Shown here: piece by piece, positions 19,457 to 49,396 of the stretch
Layout of the letters: each line of letters opens with the position of its first letter
How positions within the stretch are numbered: the first letter of the stretch is position 1
NCBI RefSeq assembly: GCF_029688865.1
Contig: NZ_JARUKV010000014.1
Span: 1-64,000, forward strand
Source of the DNA: Natronococcus sp. A-GB7
GTDB lineage: Archaea > Halobacteriota > Halobacteria > Halobacteriales > Natrialbaceae
Reading direction: 5' to 3'
DNA: 64,000 nt
Program-made: the position numbers and the translations under genes
Notes under the pieces: model-generated
Told to the model about the DNA's origin: nothing
What the model saw: only the letters and a program-made list of their open reading frames with translations
Databases searched by the model: none

Positions 19457-19600
19457 TGCGCTGGCTGGGATTTGAACCGCTCCCGAGAACCTGCTCGCTA
19501 CGCTCGCAGAACCTCGGTATGTTTCAAACCCAGATTCGATTTCTCCGAACACGGATACTCGCGCTGCCACGCAGCGCTCGCGATGTTGTGTTCGGAGAAA
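19457..19600 (-). repeat. 144-bp tRNA-Gly-linked hairpin unit, distal copy
   Basis: This unit is identical over all 144 bp to the next one. Read on the minus strand it ends with a copy of the last 20 nt or so of tRNA-Gly (T-loop, T-stem 3' strand, acceptor 3' strand, discriminator A). It contains two hairpins: arms 19465-19477/19521-19533 (CTGGGATTTGAAC with GTTTCAAACCCAG) and perfect 13-bp arms 19540-19552/19588-19600 (TTTCTCCGAACAC with GTGTTCGGAGAAA). No protein is plausible here. Confidence 0.85.
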
Positions 19601-19744
19601 TGCGCTGGCTGGGATTTGAACCGCTCCCGAGAACCTGCTCGCTACGCTCGCAGAACCTCGGTATGTTTCAAACCCAGATTCGATTTCTCCGAACACGGAT
19701 ACTCGCGCTGCCACGCAGCGCTCGCGATGTTGTGTTCGGAGAAA
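19601..19744 (-). repeat. 144-bp tRNA-Gly-linked hairpin unit, proximal copy
   Basis: This is an exact tandem copy of the 19457-19600 unit, directly abutting the 3' end of tRNA-Gly 1. The complete identity implies recent duplication or active homogenisation. The period of 144 bp is set by the tRNA 3'-end copy that begins each unit. Confidence 0.85.
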
Positions 19745-19815
19745 TGCGCTGGCTGGGATTTGAACCCAGGTTGTGACCATGGCAAGGTCACGTGATACCA
19801 CTACACTACCAGCGC
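19745..19815 (-). tRNA. tRNA-Gly(GCC), copy 1
   Basis: This 71-nt gene folds as a cloverleaf on the minus strand: acceptor GCGCTGG with CCAGCGC plus discriminator A, anticodon stem TGACC/GGTCA around loop TTGCCAT (anticodon GCC), and T-arm CTGGG-TTCAAAT-CCCAG. CCA is not encoded. The upstream sequence carries a TATA-like CCCTTATCAATT (about 19845-19854). The gene body is identical to copy 2. Confidence 0.95.
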
Positions 19816-19854: not shown

Positions 19855-19989
19855 GTTACGAATCGCTCGACTCGAGTACGGATCGAACCCTCCGTCCCGC
19901 TTCGGTGGTCGACGGCGATCCGGATCACTATCCCAGGATACTCGGAATGGCTCGAGCGACTCGAGGCGTTCGTCGGTGTCGGACGCCGG

Positions 19990-20061
19990 CTGGGATTTGA
20001 ACAACGCGAAGACGGTCGCCTCGCTTCGCTCGGCGCTGCGACTTCTCTCGTTCAAATCCAG
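19990..20061 (-). repeat. tRNA-Gly T-arm-mimicking hairpin between the two tRNAs
   Basis: Arms CTGGGATTTGAAC (19990-20002) and GTTCAAATCCAG (20050-20061) pair almost completely and copy the T-loop/T-stem of tRNA-Gly in both orientations. The interior holds a GAGCGAAGCGAG-type tip on the minus strand. It looks like a diverged relative of the 144-bp units: same arms, different interior. It lies downstream of tRNA-Gly 2 in the direction of transcription. Confidence 0.7.
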
Positions 20062-20109
20062 GACGACTTTACGGCTCACGGATGACGAGCACACGCTACG
20101 CGGTGCTCG

Positions 20110-20131
20110 TCGAGGTTGTTCGCCGTAGAAG
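20110..20131 (-). repeat. 22-bp flank repeat, copy 2
   Basis: This is identical to 19435-19456 and lies immediately downstream of tRNA-Gly copy 2. It marks the probable native 3' flank of this tRNA family. Confidence 0.8.
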
Positions 20132-20202
20132 TGCGCTGGCTGGGATTTGAACCCAGGTTGTGACCATGGCAAGGTCACGTGATACCACTACACTACCAGC
20201 GC
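20132..20202 (-). tRNA. tRNA-Gly(GCC), copy 2
   Basis: This 71-nt gene is identical to copy 1: anticodon GCC in loop TTGCCAT, T-arm CTGGG-TTCAAAT-CCCAG, acceptor 3' strand CCAGCGC with discriminator A and no encoded CCA. The seven bases before the gene (AACAGG on the minus strand) are also shared with copy 1, so the duplication included some 5' flank. Confidence 0.95.
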
Positions 20203-20501: not shown

Positions 20502-21374
20502 ATGACCGTCAGCGTGCTCGTGCCGTCGTCGCTCACCCGCGAAGCCGAGGACAAACGCGAGGCAACTCGCAAGCTCGGATACGTCGCCCGCGCGGCGACC
20601 GTGTTCCGGGCGGATCGGCTCGTCGTCTTCCCCGACCGGGAAGGCGAACGCGGGCGATTCGGCGGCGAGTTCGTCGACACCGTCTTGCGGTACGCGACGA
20701 CGCCCCCCTACCTCCGAAACGAGGCCTGGGGGATGCGCGACGAACTCGAGTACGTGGGCATCCTGCCCCCGCTCCGCGACGTGTCACAGACCGGCTCCGA
20801 ATCGAACGGTTCGGGGTCGTCAAGACAAGGAATCGTGACCGAGGTCGGACCTGATCAACGCGTGCGGGTCAATTGCGGCTTGCAACACCCGATCTCCCTC
20901 AACGTGCCTCCCGGTATGGAGCTCGAGGAGGGGGAGCGCGTGACCGTCAGGATCTCTTCGCGACGACCGGTCCGGGCGAAGCTCGTCGACGACTCCCTTC
21001 CGGGGCTCGACGTCGAGCGGACGGACCTCCAGGCAGCACTCGGCCGTGAGGACGCCGGCGTCCGCATTGCAGCCTCCCGATTCGGTGCAGAACTCACCGT
21101 CGGGCGGCTGGGGACGCTGGCCGGACGCCGCGAGCGCGACGGGATGACCGTCGCCTTCGGGGCACCCGAGAGAGGGCTGCCGGACATCCTCGGAATGGAC
21201 GAGGAGGCCGTCGACGCGCTGTCCAACTGGGACGGCGTCGACGGTGACGGAGTCGAACCCATCGATCCGGGGTTCGACCTCTGGCTGAATACGGTTCCGG
21301 ACCAGGGAAGCGACGTGGTGCGAACGGAAGAGGCTCTGTTCGCCACGCTCGCTCCCCTCACTCTCAGAGAGTGA
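20502..21374 (+). CDS. SPOUT-family RNA methyltransferase
   Basis: This 290-residue protein matches the archaeal COG2106/C9orf114-type SPOUT methyltransferases, putative rRNA or tRNA modification enzymes. It has the TVSVLVPSSLTREAEDKREAT start, RADRLVVFPD, and the TTPPYLRN motif near residue 70. An inserted beta-barrel (about residues 108-165, QGIVTEVGPDQRVRVN) resembles an OB-fold RNA-binding domain. The knot region at the C-terminus is acidic and diverged. It stops 4 bp before rpl3, so it is the first gene of the ribosomal operon. Confidence 0.8.
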   Translation: MTVSVLVPSSLTREAEDKREATRKLGYVARAATVFRADRLVVFPDREGERGRFGGEFVDTVLRYATTPPYLRNEAWGMRDELEYVGILPPLRDVSQTGSESNGSGSSRQGIVTEVGPDQRVRVNCGLQHPISLNVPPGMELEEGERVTVRISSRRPVRAKLVDDSLPGLDVERTDLQAALGREDAGVRIAASRFGAELTVGRLGTLAGRRERDGMTVAFGAPERGLPDILGMDEEAVDALSNWDGVDGDGVEPIDPGFDLWLNTVPDQGSDVVRTEEALFATLAPLTLRE

Positions 21375-48886: not shown

Positions 48887-48957
48887 GGGACCGTGGGGTA
48901 GTGGTATCCTCTGCGGATGGGGTCCGTAGGACCCGAGTTCAATTCTCGGCGGTCCCA
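48887..48957 (+). tRNA. tRNA-Pro(GGG)
   Basis: This 71-nt gene folds with acceptor GGGACCG/CGGTCCC and discriminator A, anticodon stem TGCGG/CCGTA around loop ATGGGGT (anticodon GGG), and T-arm CCGAG-TTCAATT-CTCGG. No CCA is encoded. A TATA-like CTTAAACGG lies about 30 bp upstream. Its last 20 nt are copied exactly at 49170-49189. Confidence 0.94.
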
Positions 48958-49105
48958 CTTTTCGCGACGCAACGAACGAGGGAGTGGAACGACCGGAGTG
49001 ACGTGAGGAGAGGAAAGTGGGACCAGAGAGCAGCTCCGCTGCGACCGTGGTCCCACTTTTGCCGCGAACAAAACCGTAAGCGGCAGAACTGTGGAAAGAG
49101 CCGAG
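48953..49105 (+). repeat. Imperfect 150-bp repeat, copy A (tRNA-Pro-linked)
   Basis: This segment begins in the last bases of tRNA-Pro (TCCCACTTTT) and aligns along its length with 49246-49396. Shared blocks include CGACG.AACGAACGAGGGAGTGGA, GGACCAG.GAGCA and GCTGCGACCGT. The two copies are about 293 bp apart. It contains GCAGCTCCGCTGC, a short palindrome. Confidence 0.75.
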
Positions 49106-49189
49106 AATTGAGAACGCAAGTCGCAGCCAGCGGGCGGCCAACGGGCGCGAGCTGGACCGTCTTGCATCTGTTCAATTCTCGGCGGTCCC
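48957..49189 (+). repeat. 233-bp tRNA-Pro-linked hairpin unit
   Basis: This unit is flanked by exact 20-bp copies of the tRNA-Pro 3' end (48937-48956 inside the tRNA and 49170-49189). Near its end CCGAGAATTGA (49101-49111) pairs with TTCAATTCTCGG (49171-49182), an inverted duplicate of the T-loop/T-stem. The enclosed loop is closed by GCAAG/CTTGC at its base. The design matches the tRNA-Gly units at 19457-19744 although the sequences differ. Confidence 0.8.
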
Positions 49190-49245
49190 GTTGTTTTCGG
49201 AGAAAACGTGGGAATACGAGGACGAGCATAGCGAGTCCTCGGCAG

Positions 49246-49396
49246 TCCCATTTTCACGACGTAACGAACGAGGGAGTGGAGCGACCGTTGTGAGGTGAGG
49301 AGTGAAAATAGGACCAGGGAGCAACTTTGCTGCGACCGTAGTCTCACTTCTACTGTGAACAAAAACGTGAGCGACAGCGATGTGGAACGAGTCGAG
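49246..49396 (+). repeat. Imperfect 150-bp repeat, copy B
   Basis: This is the diverged second copy of 48953-49105. It is preceded by GAGTCCTCGGCAGTCCCA, a degraded form of the tRNA-Pro 3' end. Another hairpin (GGGAATACGAGGAC paired with GTCCTCGGCAGTCCC, 49211-49249) sits at its border. Divergence suggests that this copy is older than the first unit. Confidence 0.7.

Follow-up and report, generated by a model that had tools for sequence, protein, structure and literature searches.

Modular two-hairpin repeats at the 3' ends of tRNA genes in Halobacteria

What lies behind the tRNA-Pro(GGG) gene of Natronococcus sp. A-GB7, and is it a peculiarity of this one gene? The gene belongs to a stretch of 64,000 nucleotides that was analysed as a whole (the window; contig NZ_JARUKV010000014.1) and follows truB, whose product is 95% identical to TruB of Natronococcus amylolyticus. 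Its segment from G53 to C72 (48937-48956, GTTCAATTCTCGGCGGTCCC) is duplicated without a single change at 49170-49189, with a spacing of 233 bp, and the distal copy is preceded by its own inverted complement, GCCGAGAATTGA (49100-49111) being perfectly paired over 12 nt with TCAATTCTCGGC (49172-49183) at a spacing of 60 nt. Both features had been described in an original prediction made from the sequence alone, and both are borne out. The prediction took the 233 bp for a single unit; the spacing is correct, but it is filled by two units, A with acceptor arms and B with T-arms. The entire Pro segment is a stack of approximately five units (A-E, 48958 to ~49396; Table 1), of which the three beyond B are more diverged, and repeat analysis reveals an additional 292-bp period with 78-86% identity. 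N. amylolyticus (locus L044) has an ortholog of unit B, which Natronococcus sp. A-GB1 (L045) lacks; the element of unit C is found near Pro in both species. RNA folding, proposed together with the prediction, gives the tRNA-Pro trailer a much stronger structure than its dinucleotide shuffles (z = -6.0). An Rfam search of the Pro array returned tRNA matches only, even at E<=1, with no family above the gathering threshold; mascRNA appears at this E-value as a subthreshold match on tRNA-Pro itself.

The predicted tRNA-Gly counterpart is present as well, behind two tRNA-Gly genes of the window: the two tandem units that follow tRNA-Gly 19745-19815(-) contain CTGGGTTTGAA...TTCAAATCCCAG, and CTGGATTTGAA...GTTCAAATCCCAG follows tRNA-Gly 20131-20202(-). 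Elsewhere in the window, positions 20851-20950 match the Rfam L4-Archaeoglobi ribosomal protein leader with 72.8 bits, although the host is a haloarchaeon.

Table 1. Features of the repeat units in the window
Feature	Position	Strand	Description
tRNA-Pro(GGG), host gene of the array	48887 to 48957/48958	+	ARAGORN, Rfam RF00005
Unit A	48958..49055	+	Hairpin I ~48959-49016 and acceptor-armed hairpin II, interior type c
Unit A arms	49014-49025 / 49048-49059	+	AAAGTGGGACCA / TGGTCCCACTTT, inverted repeat I4
Unit A interior			Type c, GCAGC TCC GCTGCGACCG; carried with T-loop arms by other tRNAs
Unit B (the unit of the original prediction)	49056..49189	+	T-armed, type-a interior
Unit B hairpin I	49061-49084	+	GCCGCGAACAAAACCGTAAGCGGC
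Unit B inverted T-arm	49100-49111	+	
Unit B interior, type a	~49112-49169	+	AAGTCGCAGC ... GACCGTCTT
Unit B T-arm/acceptor copy	49170-49189	+	
Unit C, small, acceptor-armed, diverged	49190..49250	+	GTTTTCGGAGAAAAC; GTGGGA ... AGTCCCA; read from the sequence
Unit D, diverged type-c acceptor-armed, homolog of unit A	49251..49346	+	Direct repeats D1/D2, 78-86% identity, 291-292 bp spacing
Unit E, truncated type-a remnant	49347..49396	+	Hairpin I TACTGTGAACAAAAACGTGAGCGACAG; direct repeat D1
Unit of tRNA-Gly 20131-20202(-)	19984..20130	-	Hairpin I; inverted arm 20051-20061; T-copy 19984-20002
Type-a interior of the tRNA-Gly 20131-20202 unit	20010-20043	-	AGTCGCAGC...GACCGTCT
Two identical tandem type-b units of tRNA-Gly 19745-19815(-)	19457..19744	-	T-copies 19601-19621 and 19457-19477

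The design is widespread in the genome itself (4.88 Mb, 77 contigs, 44 tRNA matches, all loci examined). Local alignment of G53-N73 of each tRNA (the last 21 nt) with its own 300-bp flanks, with the cut-off at the 99th percentile of dinucleotide shuffles, identifies a significant direct copy of the gene's own 3' half in the downstream flanks of 28 of 42-43 tRNA genes (one of these, for Asp, is a tandem tRNA gene) compared with 5 of 42 upstream flanks; for inverted copies with a score of 20 or more, the counts are 17 downstream and 1 upstream. Inspection by eye yields about 23 genes with T-armed units and 3 Arg genes with acceptor-armed units (~26/43). The genome-wide scan on which the original prediction had staked its claim therefore gives a large excess (28 vs 5 flanks), and the same is seen across the class. 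A role of the units as a shield against integrated elements finds no support, the GC content of the next kilobase being 0.635 for unit-bearing and 0.610 for unit-free genes (p = 0.24, in a small sample). Downstream of a unit-free tRNA-Leu(CAA) (locus L034, G000:C34), GGTTCGGAGCGAGCGC is present in ~7 tandem copies.

A search with a strict hairpin-II pattern, GATTYGAANNAG-N10..40-GTRGTTCRAATC, identifies matches in 298 of 391 Halobacteria genomes, representing 79 of 86 genera, counts that are lower bounds because the pattern matches only 7 places in the A-GB7 genome. In a phylum-wide sample, 43 of 53 Halobacteria contain the pattern, as against none of the 242 other genomes, and the reversed pattern, used as a control, has no match in any genome. 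Among 32 matches in examined loci, 30 are located 36-284 nt downstream of a tRNA gene, on the same strand and with a copy of that particular tRNA; one of the remaining two is probably due to chance, and the other is an orphan. Units are regularly spaced in tandem in several Halobacteria genomes, and other genera have the type-a Pro unit at their orthologous Pro loci. Viruses were considered as a vehicle, but none emerged: the hairpin-II motif has 2 matches in IMG/VR, one of them without a tRNA and the other at a tRNA-Glu that appears to be host flank adjoining viral genes. The type-a interior AAGTCGCAGC...GACCGTCTT has 3 matches in the same database, in surroundings that contain neither a tRNA nor a T-arm, and these were taken as chance. 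No earlier description of the element was found in the full-text literature (subscription papers lie outside this scope, and an older mention is possible), and we file the family, which has no Rfam entry, as new among short gene-free hairpin repeats.

The original prediction captured the direct and inverted copies but overlooked hairpin I, the conservation of the interiors, the stacked arrangement and the turnover between species. A complete unit consists of hairpin I directly after N73, a short spacer, an inverted T-loop arm (typically GGATTTGAA), an interior bounded by YAG ... CGTR, and a copy of the tRNA from G53/T54 to N73 (GTTCRAATC... to N73). Units are 100-230 bp in size, the duplicated tRNA half is 20-21 nt long in most of them, and they contain no gene, coding remnant or ORF of integrase size. 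The interiors fall into recognisable types, namely a (AGTCGCAGC...GACCGTCT), b (CCGAGGTTCTGCG...CGCAGGTTCTCGG), c (CAGGGAG...CGACCG) and f (CGCGCAGCG...GAGCACGTC), with simple hairpins as a further class, and identical classes are found behind Gly, Ser, Val, Leu, Met, Phe, Glu, Arg and other tRNAs. Interiors of type c are flanked by acceptor-half arms at tRNA-Pro and by T-loop arms elsewhere. Neither hairpin I nor the interior is derived from tRNA; they represent a few conserved cassettes common to different tRNAs. Hairpin I often has the form GC-GA-RC-loop-GY-GA-GC (a tandem-GA loop), and among 20 distinct examples the R-Y closing pair of this loop is A-U in 11, G-C in 9 and mixed in none, a covariation that is expected of a folded strand, either RNA or single-stranded DNA. 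The median folding z-scores against mononucleotide shuffles are -3.3 for hairpin I and -4.6 for hairpin II. The identity of the copies within stacks (19.4, 19.2 and 20.3 of 21) reveals no clear trend from which an order of age could be read.

Comparison of five Natronococcus genomes at orthologous tRNAs reveals precise presence/absence differences between filled and empty sites whose flanks are intact. At tRNA-Pro, N. amylolyticus carries a unit between the tRNA and TTTTCACGACGTAACG, and Natronococcus sp. A-GB1 joins the tRNA directly to TTTTCACGACGTAACG; at Val-TAC, the sequence that directly follows the tRNA in N. amylolyticus is preceded in A-GB1 by an additional, proximal type-c unit. In Haloferax denitrificans (L119), a Pro unit is followed by flank that resembles the unit-free H. 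mucosum locus (L114), with weaker flank homology. Of 15 tRNAs with units that were scored in three or more Natronococcus species, 14 differ, a proportion obtained with a strict ungapped detector that overstates absences. Parts of units are exchanged independently between sister species: behind Met, two species share hairpin I (93% identity) but have interiors of type c and type b, respectively, and behind Gly, an identical interior (100%) is combined with unrelated forms of hairpin I. In the compared set, no two whole units from different tRNAs of the same genome exceed 83% identity, which gives no record of a recent jump of a complete unit from one tRNA to another, and a search for a donor of the A-GB1 Val-TAC unit among other tRNAs gave only partial or 77-79% matches. 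At the locus L224 (G006:C154:1800-2700), three stacked units carry copies of the tRNA-Arg(TCG) 3' half with no tRNA nearby, and the Arg-TCG gene located elsewhere in the same genome (G006) is followed by unrelated sequence, suggesting that an integrated element split this tRNA from its units.

How local is the inverted arm? In the 4 nt beyond the T-loop, 68 distinct hairpins pair with their own copy at 142 of 272 positions, compared with 100 +- 7 when copies are permuted, and with one unit per T-stem the values are 91 of 168 and 61 +- 5. The excess comes mostly from the first three positions, and the background is reached about 3 nt past the T-loop, so that most of the arm is the reverse complement of the universal T-loop, to which a short stretch matching the local stem is added. 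The original prediction envisaged a general mechanism by which tRNA 3' halves are copied in inverted orientation. The generality holds, and this is no coincidence of one locus, but the copying is not supported in the form proposed, given that the arm is mostly universal T-loop, that the match ends so soon, and that hairpin I and the interior are of other origin.

A template switch that copies the tRNA 3' half downstream, in both inverted and direct orientation, is accordingly very unlikely, even though the arms match the local T-stem above chance and the type-c interior appears with arms of either kind, because the match stops ~3 nt beyond the universal T-loop and a switch within a locus cannot supply the conserved non-tRNA hairpin I and interiors. 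The units could instead be functional trailer RNAs that are transcribed with the tRNA and contribute to 3'-end formation or termination or act as small RNAs, their variation reflecting rapid turnover of redundant copies. Strong folding and the compensatory change in hairpin I speak for such a role, as does the capacity of hairpins to terminate transcription in Haloferax volcanii (PMC7237163), but units are lacking behind many tRNAs, including tRNAs that have one in a sister species. The mispairs of the arms point in both directions. On the tRNA-sense strand, G.T is found 52 times and A.C 22 times, in favour of RNA, but for the T-loop pair that varies most, visual inspection of the listed motif matches suggests more C.A than T.G mismatches, and wobble counts in arms are not phylogenetically independent. 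As a proof of strand, the G.T to A.C ratio was dropped because few positions drive it, and the strand test is further weakened by a variable T-loop position that in the larger set seems to lean the opposite way. On balance, trailer RNAs appear unlikely.

A passive process of birth and death, in which ancient hairpins flanking tRNAs are duplicated or deleted by slippage or homologous recombination between the direct copies of the tRNA end and their interiors are gene-converted, with neither a dedicated enzyme nor selfish mobility, deserves more weight, while still being rather improbable. It is compatible with the exact tandem units (at Gly in the window, and with regular spacing in several genomes), with the lack of recent sharing of whole units between tRNAs and with the type-a Pro unit at orthologous loci of other genera; precise deletions are expected from 20-bp direct repeats, and the empty sites, too, would be explained by ordinary recombination between such repeats. 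However, the interior swaps are flanked by just ~10-12 bp of shared arm on each side, the interiors are recognisable class-wide, unlike neutral sequence, and one type-c interior is common to acceptor-armed and T-armed units. That the units are residues of decayed integrated viruses or plasmids (attR plus flank) is the least probable of these alternatives: attL/attR sites are classically recognised by a directly repeated tRNA 3' end, and the stacked Arg-TCG units at L224 were apparently displaced by an integrated element, but a small conserved architecture with conserved interiors across tRNAs and 79 genera, in 100-230 bp that harbour no integrase or coding remnant, is difficult to reconcile with decay.

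With the anatomy, conserved folding, class-wide distribution, near-exclusive location at tRNAs, precise presence/absence and exchange of parts all directly observed, the class-wide interiors, the position at tRNA 3' ends, the precise joints and the part swapping indicate a specialised repeat family, as opposed to debris or chance. We tentatively favour, at somewhat below even chances, the reading that these are Halobacteria-specific, non-coding, modular two-hairpin repeats that would be gained, lost and exchanged by recombination within the duplicated tRNA half, from the T-loop to N73. Archaeal integrases favour tRNA 3' ends as targets (PMC8371274). Because the duplicated segment is the one also used by tRNA-targeting integrases, the elements would amount to tiny passengers at this site, and recombination in the tRNA half is further favoured by their sharing of the site with large elements at L224. 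On the folded tRNA-sense strand, the inverted T-loop arm would turn the tRNA half into a duplex, which might allow a recombinase to recognise it, hide a harmful second tRNA half in read-through RNA, or do both. In equilibrium folds of 59 transcripts comprising tRNA and unit, the acceptor 5' strand pairs with the copy at 0.61 and with the true 3' half at 0.21, and when the inverted arm is shuffled, pairing with the copy goes up to 0.70 (p = 1e-4; 59 transcripts). The folds thus agree in direction with sequestration and weakly support it, the modelled effect being small and co-transcriptional folding ignored. As the elements are gene-free, an enzyme involved in the process would have to be supplied in trans; no recombinase linked to the units was found. 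By analogy with integrons, a single-strand system on tRNA genes can be envisaged, in which a haloarchaeal tyrosine recombinase would take the duplex tRNA half of the folded unit as an att site and gene-free cassettes would be inserted, stacked and exchanged class-wide; this extension is improbable.

Among the closest known systems, tRNA integrative elements keep the tRNA intact and repeat its 3' part at their far end (attL/attR of archaeal tyrosine integrases, PMC8371274). The units show the same direct repeat (20-21 nt) with an intact tRNA, in filled/empty pairs; in both cases the T-loop/acceptor segment is the target and stacking at one tRNA occurs, but the units differ in being 100-230 bp long and gene-free, with two hairpins, an inverted T-arm and conserved interiors. 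The SMR, MITE and PATE elements of Haloquadratum are likewise short, gene-free haloarchaeal elements with hairpins or inverted repeats and a target preference; PATEs have near-terminal palindromes, and SMRs and MITEs have terminal inverted repeats (PMC3119063). In the window array, no terminal inverted repeat joins the ends of a unit, which sets the units apart from SMRs and MITEs, and whereas SMRs and PATEs produce no target duplication and the target of SMR-A is the palindromes of other elements (PMC3119063), the units duplicate a 20-21 bp tRNA half. Mitochondrial repetitive and double hairpin elements are similarly gene-free, patchy, of inferred mobility and often intergenic, including near tRNA genes, but reside in different genomes, and the passages considered describe no duplication of a tRNA half (PMC2800124). 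REP/BIME sequences, which are also short, imperfect, many-copy palindromes, are scattered through intergenic space, unlike the units, for which 30 of 32 motif matches are at tRNA 3' ends. A casposon encodes Cas1 and has terminal inverted repeats and a target duplication of ~14-15 bp at a tRNA; the units are gene-free, without terminal inverted repeats, and have a 20-21 bp duplication. The likeness to the integron attC site is a functional analogy only, consisting in an imperfect hairpin with a variable apical part and arms that re-create a duplex on one folded strand. The attC consensus has an R' box GTTRRRY and a complementary R''; the T-copy reads GTTCRAATC, with C as the fourth base, no cassette ORF is attached to the 100-230 bp units, and no integron integrase was seen.

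The main docking sites of archaeal viruses and plasmids are tRNA 3' ends. A family of elements that occupies this site and supplies a second docking copy may shape the action of integrases, the transcription and ending of tRNAs, and the evolution of tRNA loci. Being without an Rfam match, the repeat family is invisible to automated annotation, and its presence/absence and swapping of parts offer a clean natural experiment on a recombination process.

Several loci add minor observations. Intron-containing tRNA-Trp also has units behind it (L223, L225). A single hairpin between convergent tRNA-Lys and tRNA-Cys genes (L181, G006) has arms that fit both tRNAs and may be a unit for each. Behind tRNA-Pro of Haloferax elongans and H. 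larsenii (L121 and L101, respectively), the tRNA copy at the unit end is shortened and AT-rich sequence comes next, which looks like the joining of a further element at this copy. Within a unit interior at tRNA-Pro(TGG) (L230, G004), a longer palindromic insert, CTATAGTAACAACTGAAA...TTTCAGTGGCTACTATAG, resembles a MITE-type insertion.
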